A DNA stretch of 5,098 bases from Candidatus Zhuqueibacterota bacterium (GTDB taxonomy: Bacteria; SM23-31), in NCBI GenBank assembly GCA_022562855.1, contig JADFON010000183.1:1-5098 (forward strand), written 5' to 3'. The notes below the pieces were generated by a model. It saw only the letters and a list, made by a program, of their open reading frames with translations. It was not told the origin of the DNA and did not search any database. The position numbers and the translations under genes were made by a program. This document shows, in pieces, positions 51 to 5,098 of this stretch. The stretch's first letter is position 1, and every line of letters starts with the position of its first letter.

Positions 51-2756
51 TTACTTCTTTTTCTTCAGATAAGGCACACCGTTAACCATCCAATCCGGCG
101 CCGGTTCGCCTTTAAGATGGTGGTCGAAAAACTGGTTCACCCGGCGTGTATAATCTTTTTGATTTTCGATCTTTCTAAGGCTGTGCAATTCTCCGGGGTA
201 AGACAGAAAAATCACCGGTTTATTGTTAAAGCGGAGCGCATTATAGAATTCCAGACCCTGGTTATATTCAACGGTCGGGTCGTCAACCCCGTGCAAATAT
301 AACAGCGGCGTGTCCATTGTCCTGACCCATGTTATCGGCGATTGCTCCCTGTACAGTCCGGGATCGTCATAGGGATTTGTGCCATATCTTCCCTGCCCGT
401 ATATATCATACCTGTGATTGTTTTGACCGCTGCCCGTAAATATTATATTGAACTCTCCGAGGAGATTGATCGGCGCTGCTCCGGATGCGATAGCGGCAAA
501 CATTGTTGATCTTGTCGCGATATAAGAAGAGCCGCCGCCACTGTAACTGTGTCCATGCAGACCTATGCGTTCAGGGTCGGCATATCCCATCTCTATAACC
601 TTTTTCACAGCCGCCTCCACACATTCAAGCATGTCTGAATGTGACGTGCGTGTCCTGAAATGAATATCGGGCTGCATCACGAGATAGCCATTACTCACAA
701 AACGGGCAAATTGTGGTGATGATGCGTATCGCGGCGCGGTATAACGATGGAGATTTTGAGAGTTTTTCTCATAGAAATTAACAAGCATTGGCAGACGCTG
801 TCCCTCGATATAATCATCGGGAATTCCAAGTGTCCCCTGCAGCCGTACGCCATCTTTGTTTGTGAAATCGAAAAGTATTCTGCGCCCCCAAACAAATTCC
901 GACTGGTGGGGATTAGCATCGGTCATTCGTTCCGGGTAAGAAAACCGGGAATCGCTCACATAATAATCCGGGAAATCTGTAAACATTCCGATAGTGTACA
1001 AATATTTATCCGCATTCTTCGCTTTTCGCACAGTACCGAACCGTTTGTCGTCATAAATCAGCTTCTCCATCCTTCCATCTTTTAATTCATAATAGCCTGC
1101 TTTTTTTGTCCATTGTCCGTACGCCGATAGAAGGACCGGTTTCGATAAATCGACAAACCGTTCCTCCGTGTCCAACCTGACGTATCTGAACCGGATTTCT
1201 TCTTTGGCTCCCAATCCTCCGGTCAGGTTTGTCGCTTTACTACCGTCAAGTGGCTGCAGCCAGAGATCGTATCTATGATTCAATATGACCGCTTTACCGT
1301 CCTTTGTCCAGCCCGAAACCCCGTATGGAGGTTTCGTACCTACCCTGTCATATTCAGCATTTACAAATTTCACCGGGGTGGATTTTGTCAGATTGGTTTT
1401 CTCATCCGTTTCCCGGTTGTACAGCCAGACATTCTTGTCGTGCCAATATAGAAAATTTTTACTGTCGGGCGATATCCCCAGTGTTCTTCCTTGTTCCTTC
1501 AGGAAAAGAGTACGTTCACCGGTTAAAGTGTTTACCCGGTAAAAATCTGCCCTGGCTTCTTTCCAGTCCGAGACATACTCCCTGTTATCCCTTCCGACGC
1601 CCCATTCGCCGTCCCTTGATAAAGTAACCGTCCGCATCGATTCGCCCGTAAGCCTGATAAATCTTTTATTTGTCAGATTGTAGACAGACTTGTAGGTAAA
1701 ATTCCGGTCGGCGTTTGCACGCGCTTTTTGCACAGTCTGGATGCGGTCGTCTTTCCAGTGGAATATATCGACCGTAGAAACCGGTTCGGCATCATCGTCT
1801 TTTTCCGGTTCATCTTCCTGCTTTTTTATCCCAAAAAATACCCTTGAGAGGTCCTTACTCCATGAAAGAGTTCCCTTTTCGCTGATGATAATATTCTCCG
1901 GAAATCCTTCGATTGAAGAGGGATCGAATTCGTTAACCGCAGGCTCCCCGCTTTCCAACCCGGTAAAGGCAAGCAATACATTGTCTTTGTGCACTTTTTT
2001 CTTATCTTTTGTCCCTTTCAGGACTGCGATTACAAATCCTTCCTCATCCCACGTCATCTGCGCATAGTCGGCTTTACCGCTGTCGACCGGTCTTCGTGCC
2101 CCGCTGCCCAGATACATAATTGATATTCCGTTTCCGTCTTTATCCGCTGCGTCCGTCGTATACGCCATCATGGTACCCGGTTTATTAAAACTAAAGCTGC
2201 CCACATTCCCAATTAGGTCGTCGTACCCTCTTTCCAGATTTCGCATAATGAGGTCTGTGCCGTTATGCTTTGCGTCACTGTCGGACTTGGCTTTTTTTAC
2301 CGCTAAATACATTGATCCTTTCGAAAATCTGAACGAAGAAGTATTGTCGTAAGTTATTTTTTCACCCGTTTCAAGGTTCATCAATTGCGTTTTTTGGGTA
2401 ACGGGTTTCTTGTCCTTTCGCAGTTTCTCGGCTTCCTTAAAAGGCAGGGTTACCCTGTATGAGACCCATTTTGAGTCGTCGGAGAATGAAGGATTTGAGC
2501 CGCTGGGGATTTCATACTCCTTAACAGTCGAGAGGCTTTTCACATACAACGTGTCATCCATAGTACGGGTCCGGTACGAAAAAGTGATCCAGTTGCCATC
2601 GTCGGATAGAACGGTAGAACCAATTGTCCTCCACCTCGCATAATCATCGAAGGACAGGGCTTTTTTGCCGCCGTTTACCTGCGCAAAAACATGAGATGCA
2701 GTAAGTATAACCGCGATGCAGAATATCAAGGGAAGATATCGACGAATACTCTTCAT
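51..2756 (-). CDS. Exported S9 family (prolyl oligopeptidase-like) serine peptidase, complete
   Basis: Predicted exported serine peptidase of about 901 residues that would hydrolyse peptides in the periplasm or outside the cell; the exact substrate cannot be read from sequence. Residues 1-25 form a signal peptide: basic KSIRR, hydrophobic LIFCIAVILTA, and a likely cut after VFA before Gln26. Residues of about 30-610 look like a TolB/DPP-IV-type beta-propeller, with repeated 'S.DG.W' and 'LWLQPLDG' blades and an acidic linker just before Trp334. Residues of about 622-895 are the alpha/beta-hydrolase domain. The catalytic triad is Ser737 (GHSYSGG), Asp826 (HGVDD) and His858 (YPGELH), spaced 89 and 32 residues apart as in S9 enzymes. 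The start at 2756 is chosen over an in-frame ATG at 2792 because GGAGG lies 6 nt upstream and the signal peptide then begins correctly. It stops with TAA after a KKKK tail. It is a paralogue of the damaged gene upstream. Confidence 0.93.
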   Translation of the reverse strand: MKSIRRYLPLIFCIAVILTASHVFAQVNGGKKALSFDDYARWRTIGSTVLSDDGNWITFSYRTRTMDDTLYVKSLSTVKEYEIPSGSNPSFSDDSKWVSYRVTLPFKEAEKLRKDKKPVTQKTQLMNLETGEKITYDNTSSFRFSKGSMYLAVKKAKSDSDAKHNGTDLIMRNLERGYDDLIGNVGSFSFNKPGTMMAYTTDAADKDGNGISIMYLGSGARRPVDSGKADYAQMTWDEEGFVIAVLKGTKDKKKVHKDNVLLAFTGLESGEPAVNEFDPSSIEGFPENIIISEKGTLSWSKDLSRVFFGIKKQEDEPEKDDDAEPVSTVDIFHWKDDRIQTVQKARANADRNFTYKSVYNLTNKRFIRLTGESMRTVTLSRDGEWGVGRDNREYVSDWKEARADFYRVNTLTGERTLFLKEQGRTLGISPDSKNFLYWHDKNVWLYNRETDEKTNLTKSTPVKFVNAEYDRVGTKPPYGVSGWTKDGKAVILNHRYDLWLQPLDGSKATNLTGGLGAKEEIRFRYVRLDTEERFVDLSKPVLLSAYGQWTKKAGYYELKDGRMEKLIYDDKRFGTVRKAKNADKYLYTIGMFTDFPDYYVSDSRFSYPERMTDANPHQSEFVWGRRILFDFTNKDGVRLQGTLGIPDDYIEGQRLPMLVNFYEKNSQNLHRYTAPRYASSPQFARFVSNGYLVMQPDIHFRTRTSHSDMLECVEAAVKKVIEMGYADPERIGLHGHSYSGGGSSYIATRSTMFAAIASGAAPINLLGEFNIIFTGSGQNNHRYDIYGQGRYGTNPYDDPGLYREQSPITWVRTMDTPLLYLHGVDDPTVEYNQGLEFYNALRFNNKPVIFLSYPGELHSLRKIENQKDYTRRVNQFFDHHLKGEPAPDWMVNGVPYLKKKK

Positions 2757-2760
2757 TATT

Positions 2761-2767
2761 TTCCTCC
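2761..2767 (-). promoter_or_regulatory. Ribosome binding site that decides the start of the intact S9 gene
   Basis: The minus strand reads GGAGGAA, with the GGAGG core 6 nt before the ATG at 2756-2754. The alternative in-frame ATG at 2792 is preceded only by GGGATGTGTTAG, with no convincing Shine-Dalgarno sequence, and would put 12 extra residues ahead of an otherwise standard signal peptide. This supports the shorter start. Confidence 0.85.
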
Positions 2768-2864
2768 GTAAAGTAATGGGGTTCGGTTTCATCTAACACA
2801 TCCCGAACATTTAGAATGGGACAGAAAATCAAAACAACTCGTTTTATTGTTTTTTCTCATTATG

Positions 2865-3028: not shown

Positions 3029-4753
3029 TCATTTTTTCTTCTTAAGAAATGGGACGCCGTTTACCATCCAGTCCGGAGCGGGTTTATCCTTCAGATAGTG
3101 GTCGAGAAATGCCATCATACGAATCTGGTAATCCTTTTGGTTTTCATATCGCCTCAGACCGTGTGCCTCACCGGGATATGATAAAAGAATGACATTTTTC
3201 CCGTTAAAACGAAGCGCGTTATAAAACTCTACCGCCTGCAGCCATTCCACAGAACCGTCCGCAGTGCCATGCAGTATCATCAGCGGAGTATTCATGCTTC
3301 TCACATGATAGATTGCCGACTCATTCTGGTACAACTTCAGGTCGTCATATGGATTGGTCCCGAACCTGCCCTGACCGTAAATGTCATAACGGTGCTGGCT
3401 GGTGCCGCTTGTTTTCCACAATTGATTAAAATCACTAACAAGGTTTGTCGCTCCCGCCCCATAAACGATTGCAGCGAACATATTCGACCTCGTTGAGATA
3501 TATGCCGAACCCTGACCGCTGAAACTGTGCCCGTGCAGACTTATTCTATCCGGGTCGGCATACCCCATCTCGATCACTTTTTTCACTGCCGCTTCAACAC
3601 AGTCCAGCATATCCGAATGGGTAGTAACCGTATTAAAGTAAATGTCCGGCTGCATAACTAAGTATCCGTTGCTCACCAAACCGGCAAAATTCGGAGAACC
3701 TGCGATACGCGGCGTTGTGTACCGGTTCAGGTTTTGAGAATTTTTCTCATAGAAATTTACATGCATTGGCAATTTCTCACCTTCGACATAGGTATCCGGG
3801 ATTGCAAGAGTACCCTGGAGTTTCACCCCTTTTTTATTTTTGAACTCAAATAATATCCGGCGTCCCCAATTGAATTCAGACTGCTGAGGATTGGCGTCGG
3901 TGACCTTTATTGGATTCGTAAACTTGGTGTCGCTTACATAATAATCAGGAAAATCTCTAAAAGTTTGTATGGTATACAAAATCTTATCCGCATTCTTTGC
4001 CTTGATTGGTCTGCCAAATCTTTTATCATCGTAGACGAGATTTTCCGTTTTTCCGTCTTTCAACACCGAATAACCCGCCTTCTTCGTCATTTGTCCTAAT
4101 GTTGAAAACATCATCGGTTTCGATGTGTCGATAAAGTCATTCGTGCCGCCTCTGCCTCTACCGCCTCTGCCGCCGCCGCCGCCGCCTGGGCGAGGTTCTA
4201 TGTTCACATACCGGAATACGATTTTGTCTTTTTCTCCGAGTCCGTTTGTCAGGGGCGTAGCCTTACCGCCGTCCAATGGCTGTAAAAACAGGTCGTATTT
4301 GTGGGTAAGAATGACATGTTTACCATCTTTTGTCCAGCCTGTTACACCATAGGGAGGTACTTCTCCCGGACGGTCGAATTCTTTGTTCCTGAAATCGGCG
4401 GGACCATTTTTCGTTAGATTGGTATTTTCGCCTGTTTCAATGTCATACAACCAAACATTTTTGTCTTTCCAATACAGGTAGCGCTTGCTGTCCGGTGAAA
4501 GACCCAGCGTTCGTCCCATTTCTTTGAACATAGGTGTCCGTTCACCGGTAGAAGTGTTTACCCTGTAATAGTCGGCGCGGCGTTCTTCCCAATCCGATAT
4601 ATAATCCCGGTCGTCCTGCCCGACTCCCCATTTTCCGTCTTTTGTCAGCGCAATAGTACGCATGCGCGTGTCTGTCAGCTCGATAAACCTGTTGTTATTG
4701 AGACTATAAGCAGACCGGTAGCTAAAATTCTTGTCCCTGGTTGCCTGTACCAT
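3029..4753 (-). pseudogene. S9 family serine peptidase, N-terminally broken paralogue (catalytic part intact)
   Basis: This open frame of 574 codons aligns without frameshift to the C-terminal part of the neighbouring S9 peptidase; over the last 96 residues I count 64 identities by hand. It keeps the end of the beta-propeller and the whole hydrolase domain, with triad residues Ser410 (GHSFSGQ), Asp499 (HGTAD) and His531 (YPGEAH), at the same 89 and 32 residue spacing as in the intact copy. Homology does not start at the Met at 4753 but runs nine codons further upstream (ADDRIQSVQ) to a TAG at 4781-4783 that replaces a Trp codon. The Met has no clear ribosome binding site, and there is no signal peptide. 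A Gly/Arg insertion occupies residues 190-203. If translated from this Met, the product would be a cytoplasmic half-propeller hydrolase, probably misfolded, so I call it a decaying gene. A sequencing error at the stop would not restore the missing N-terminus. Confidence 0.8.
4145..4186 (-). repeat. Low-complexity Gly/Arg-coding tract inside the broken S9 gene
   Basis: Six consecutive GGC codons are followed by RGGRGRGG, giving 14 residues (190-203 of the 574-codon frame). The intact paralogue has a short DTEER segment at the matching place, so this copy carries about 16 extra residues between the FRYV strand and the SKP strand of the propeller. It is in frame and most likely a loop expanded by triplet slippage. 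Confidence 0.85.
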
Positions 4754-4780
4754 CTGTACCGACTGTATCCTGTCGTCCGC

Positions 4781-5083
4781 CTAATGCCAAATATCGACGT
4801 CCGCAACCTTTTTTCCGTTCTTTTTCTTTCCAGCATTAATTGAATCCAGTAAGGGTTGCGGTTTGTCTGGACTCTGGCTCTGGCCGCTCTCTTCGCCCAC
4901 ATCTGGCGCCCCGGCATAAACTTCTTTACCATCCGAGTTTGGGTCTTTCGCTTCCATTCCTTCCGGGATTGGATCCTCCACTTCCATGCTTTTCCAGCCC
5001 AACTTTTCACAATAGGCAATGGTATCCTTCCTATCGTTTGTTTCAACCATCACGCCACTTGGCTTTTCCCAATGGATCATCAT
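4781..5083 (-). CDS. Short chimeric ORF: unknown N-terminus joined in frame to an S9 peptidase fragment, ending at an amber stop
   Basis: A 100-codon frame begins with tandem ATGs at 5083 and 5080 behind a good ribosome binding site. Residues 1 to about 45 (start MMIHWEKPSG, with VETNDRKDTIAYCEKLGW following) do not match the S9 family. Their style, a short strand pair with 'GV.VET' then a helix ending in GW, resembles small phage-associated hypothetical proteins, but this is a weak impression. Residues of about 45-75 are an acidic, Gly/Ser/Pro-rich linker. Residues of about 76-100 (ending KKVADVDIWH) match the segment before the conserved HW-x-DDRIQ motif of the intact paralogue (TVDIFHWKDDRIQ), so the frame runs directly into the broken peptidase gene. 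There is no signal peptide. About 235 residues of the expected S9 N-terminus are missing. Whether any protein is made is unknown; it may be a rearrangement or assembly join. Confidence 0.6.
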   Translation of the reverse strand: MMIHWEKPSGVMVETNDRKDTIAYCEKLGWKSMEVEDPIPEGMEAKDPNSDGKEVYAGAPDVGEESGQSQSPDKPQPLLDSINAGKKKNGKKVADVDIWH

Positions 5084-5090
5084 TGTAAAA

Positions 5091-5098
5091 ATCTCCTA
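5091..5098 (-). promoter_or_regulatory. Ribosome binding site of the chimeric ORF
   Basis: The minus strand reads TAGGAGAT at the window edge. Its AGGAG core is 9 nt before the first ATG (5083) and 12 nt before the second (5080), which favours the first. Its quality suggests that the unknown N-terminal part comes from a genuine gene start rather than from random sequence. Confidence 0.65.

Follow-up and report, generated by a model that had tools for sequence, protein, structure and literature searches.

A phage-like ORF start ahead of a truncated S9 peptidase gene at a contig end: a probable assembly chimera

Two S9 peptidase genes and an unrelated ORF start

The window analysed here is the entire contig C189 (5,098 bp), so that the odd ORF start it harbors lies at a physical contig end, with only 15 nt of sequence upstream of the first ATG (5083). 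The contig belongs to a metagenome-assembled genome (MAG) of 491 contigs and 2,513,371 bases, and carries two S9-family peptidase genes in tandem, both on the minus strand, together with the following features:

51..2792, minus strand: intact tandem S9 paralogue, the downstream gene (913 codons; PF00326, E 1e-21)
3029..4807, minus strand: S9-family peptidase gene, 3' two thirds only, from VADVDIWH*ADDRIQ... onwards, with a TAG as its only break (Peptidase_S9 PF00326, E 3.4e-24; 75% identity to the G001 orthologue)
4781..4783, minus strand: in-frame TAG where S9 relatives have the conserved Trp codon (TGG) of HW-x-DD
4781..5083, minus strand: 100-codon ORF with a tandem ATG start (5083, 5080), closed by this TAG (ORF list and frame reading)
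4808..4831, minus strand: Lys-rich stretch GKKKNGKK, the likeliest join site, which could belong to an S9 linker or to a phage ORF tail
4832..4990, minus strand: variable tail (residues 32-84), probably the remainder of a phage small ORF; nothing significant in Pfam, PHROGs, phage or plasmid records, phage ORF tails being likewise variable
4991..5080, minus strand: phage-derived part, the N-terminal motif conserved in a small ORF that follows P22-type coat-protein genes (39-67% identity, 14 phage loci)
5093..5097, minus strand: AGGAG, resembling a ribosome-binding site, 9 nt ahead of the first ATG (direct sequence reading)

Secure S9 homology begins only at VADVDIWH (4807) and continues downward from there. 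Judging by its family, this part would encode a prolyl-oligopeptidase-like serine peptidase that is exported, with its true start expected outside the contig: the N-terminal region with its signal peptide is missing here, but present in orthologues. The closest known counterpart is the S9 peptidase of bacterium SM23_31 (LJUD01000064.1, with an S9 frame of 907 codons), which shares 72-75% identity over 574 residues and the same two-gene tandem, but differs in that the gene considered here lacks the N-terminal 333 residues and signal peptide, has TAG for Trp, and contains an extra RPGGGGGGRGGRGRGG loop. This Gly/Arg-rich loop of the upstream S9 gene (4141-4200) has no equivalent in L003 and L004, the closest orthologues, and a similar one is present in L053. 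In L003 (G001:C35), the tandem has its second S9 gene split across two frames, in a frameshift-like manner.

The catalytic Ser, Asp and His motifs of PF00326 (GHSF, HGTAD and GEAH) are intact, and no further stop, frameshift or decay is seen in the 574-aa S9 remainder. Its differences to the G001 orthologue fall mostly on third codon positions (106, 82 and 305 at positions 1, 2 and 3, respectively), with pN of 0.16 and pS of 0.76 (dS being saturated), a pattern of strong constraint that makes this remainder look like a functional gene.

The N-terminal end is entirely different. Approximately 84 residues of the ORF are unrelated to the intact paralogue and to any S9 relative, which confirms the foreign start proposed by an earlier sequence-only reading and makes its estimate of approximately 45 unrelated residues too short; the tandem ATGs behind AGGAG that it described were also found by direct reading. 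Its comparison of approximately 333 residues normally ahead of the HW-x-DD motif with 100 codons here holds as to the numbers, but the motif itself is broken by the TAG. The closest orthologues (G001, G002) do have 333 residues ahead of this motif (within sequences such as ...EKKKDDEPVADVDIWHWKDERIQ...), and the other readable relatives 333-362 (up to 450), bar one cut at a contig end, in a count that leaves out some more distant relatives without a recognisable motif. The N-terminus is normal in all S9 relatives whose full gene is readable, and the start seen here occurs in none of them, so that no homologue sharing these N-terminal residues, by which the start would have passed for a natural variant, exists among them.

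When the upstream S9 frame is read upward, it gives IWH*ADDRIQ, the TAG (4783-4781) splitting the foreign start from the S9 part. The two are in the same frame, as had been claimed, but not in one continuous ORF, the stop having been missed, and the upstream S9 gene has no uninterrupted start-to-end frame. No fusion protein is therefore encoded without readthrough. The Lys-to-Ala change beside the TAG was considered as additional damage and then dropped, since an intact relative (L054) reads HWADDRIQ; the sole abnormal change is thus Trp to TAG, for which a base error or the misjoin itself is the likeliest source.

Where the two parts meet can be bracketed: GKKKNGKK resembles S9 linkers (EKKKDDEP, GKKGKKDP) as much as a phage tail (NKKGNKK in L039), and since it fits both, an exact position is not placeable. 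It falls strictly between 4991 and 4808, with the Lys-rich stretch at 4831-4808 as the most likely site, instead of the 4846-4880 interval suggested earlier. The G+C content of 4801-5000 (51.5%, vs 37-54% elsewhere) is not decisive in this respect. Between both S9 genes (2951-2993), an inverted repeat (CCGCAG...CTGCGG), preceded by an A-run and followed by a T-run, appears terminator-like by eye, and is absent from the pattern-scan list.

A small ORF next to P22-type coat-protein genes

The ORF start gave only chance-level matches in Pfam, PHROGs and NCBIfam, no match in plasmid records and nothing better than E 0.1 in 59 other genomes, and no relative emerged when viral and genome collections were scanned for exact peptides of the 81-residue start. 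Viral contigs also lacked an exact 22-mer spanning the join. By tblastn, a weak match (E 0.3) was obtained on gp11 of the Pseudoalteromonas phage vB_PspP-H6/1, a 45-codon gene flanked by coat-protein and head-completion genes. The search was then extended from this match to a two-sequence profile, which retrieved 2 viral contigs, and to a four-sequence profile, which retrieved 12 (11 of them new); the phage family was reached by this route alone.

In total, 14 phage loci contain a small ORF matching residues 2-31 (5080-4991), with 43-67% identity over 30-50 residues, or 39% over a longer stretch in L043. These ORFs share the motif M-x-x-W-x-[KR]-P-S-G ... E-T-N-D ... Y-x-x-[KS]-L-G-W with the start studied here, as illustrated by gp11 of vB_PspP-H6/1 (KX257490) and the IMG/VR loci L034-L046. 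Gene order agrees with the sequence match: in each of the 14 loci the small ORF follows a P22-type coat-protein gene, which shares 49-69% identity with its L034 counterpart; the two are adjacent in 11 loci and 0.6-1.3 kb apart in L037, L039 and L043. Downstream of the small ORF, nine loci (L034 among them) have a detectable adaptor gene resembling the L034 one (PHROG 637, Ad3). The phage origin of residues 2-31, which the sequence-only reading had raised as a possibility, is thus well supported by sequence and gene order alike.

Unlike this conserved N-terminus, the tail is not conserved among the phage ORFs, in which it is variable and often Lys-rich, and residues 32-84 are probably such a tail. 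A further difference is that the ORF here runs into S9 sequence, and that its coat gene would be expected past the end of the contig. The small ORF (L034 3001-3177 and 13 other loci, L033 and L035-L046) recurs downstream of P22-type coat-protein genes, a position that suggests a head-related accessory protein. Its L034 and L035 versions have no PHROGs family match, and the copy on this contig likewise matched no Pfam, PHROGs or NCBIfam family. The present locus brings to light a small ORF recurring beside the coat-protein gene of P22-like phages.

Origin of the junction

With the phage identity of the start, its contig-end position, the TAG and the intact orthologues established, how could a phage ORF come to precede a peptidase gene? 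An assembly chimera at the contig end is most probably the answer, and the best of the three options (real fusion, prophage or mobile-element boundary, chimera) initially considered. The last 250-290 bases of the contig would correspond to a fragment of a P22-like tailed phage, namely the start of the small gene downstream of the coat gene, that the assembler would have joined to mid-gene S9 peptidase sequence, the A-rich Lys-coding linker being the probable site, leaving the true 5' part of the peptidase gene (approximately 330 codons with the signal peptide) off the contig. Several observations favour this chimera: the foreign DNA is the terminal piece of a short contig, with the switch of origin near its end; the MAG yielded neither a second copy of the ORF, nor a P22-type coat or head-closure gene, nor anything else P22-like; no relative has such a start, and in L047 and L048 the orthologue has no phage-like genes ahead of it; the TAG breaks the supposed fusion; and the S9 remainder is constrained, with its catalytic motifs intact. 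Counting against it, a search of the other contigs of the MAG (79.6% complete) did not recover the missing 5' part of the S9 gene, leaving a misjoin without its proving second half, and virus-bacterium chimeras represented a small share of contigs in a simulation study (0.914% with one assembler setting; PMC3901335). The present contig resembles the chimeric metagenome contigs of that study in combining two origins, the switch being located here close to one end.

Other explanations have to be weighed against the same evidence. A real chromosomal junction, by which illegitimate recombination or the decay and deletion of a prophage would have fused a phage head-region start and its ribosome-binding site to a truncated exported peptidase gene, turned into a pseudogene by the TAG and now decaying in the population, is unlikely. 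It would fit the solid phage origin of the start, the in-frame join of two parts running in the same direction, and a TAG of the kind that a dying gene would gain, but the junction sits within approximately 290 bp of the contig end, P22-type coat and head-closure genes were not found in the MAG, and the remaining 574 codons show third-position bias without a further stop or frameshift. Prophage boundaries of P22-like phages lie at the integrase/attachment end, while the phage piece here belongs to the interior of the head-gene cluster; this, with P22-type coat and head-closure genes not found in the MAG, makes the prophage boundary mentioned in the sequence-only reading improbable.

A non-phage start, either an ordinary S9 N-terminus peculiar to this lineage or some unrelated gene of the host, is very unlikely: residues 32-84 do match nothing known, but the initial 30 residues correspond to the small ORF of 14 coat-gene-linked phage loci, whose gene order contradicts a non-phage origin, and the 59 other genomes provide no counterpart better than E 0.1. 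A functional phage-peptidase fusion, obtained by readthrough of the TAG or with the S9 part translated from an internal start (e.g., 4753), is the hardest of all to credit. Both halves share a frame and a ribosome-binding site lies ahead of the ORF, but the conserved Trp is replaced by a stop, the architecture is absent from all relatives, and such a protein would have neither the signal peptide nor a complete propeller domain. Given the TAG between the halves, a working gene fusion is not supported, and the start and the peptidase are probably not a real fused gene.

As for what could have caused the misjoin, A-rich words common to both sides of the junction are suggestive only, as they reach at most 12 nt, below usual assembly k-mers and easily occurring by chance. 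Among the relatives, the contig L048 (LJUC01000030.1), binned as Phycisphaerae SM23_30, carries S9 genes among amidohydrolase-like genes, one of them approximately 69-72% identical to the upstream S9 gene described here, which may reflect misbinning or gene transfer. For annotation, caution is needed in that a short contig end can pass for a phage-peptidase fusion.
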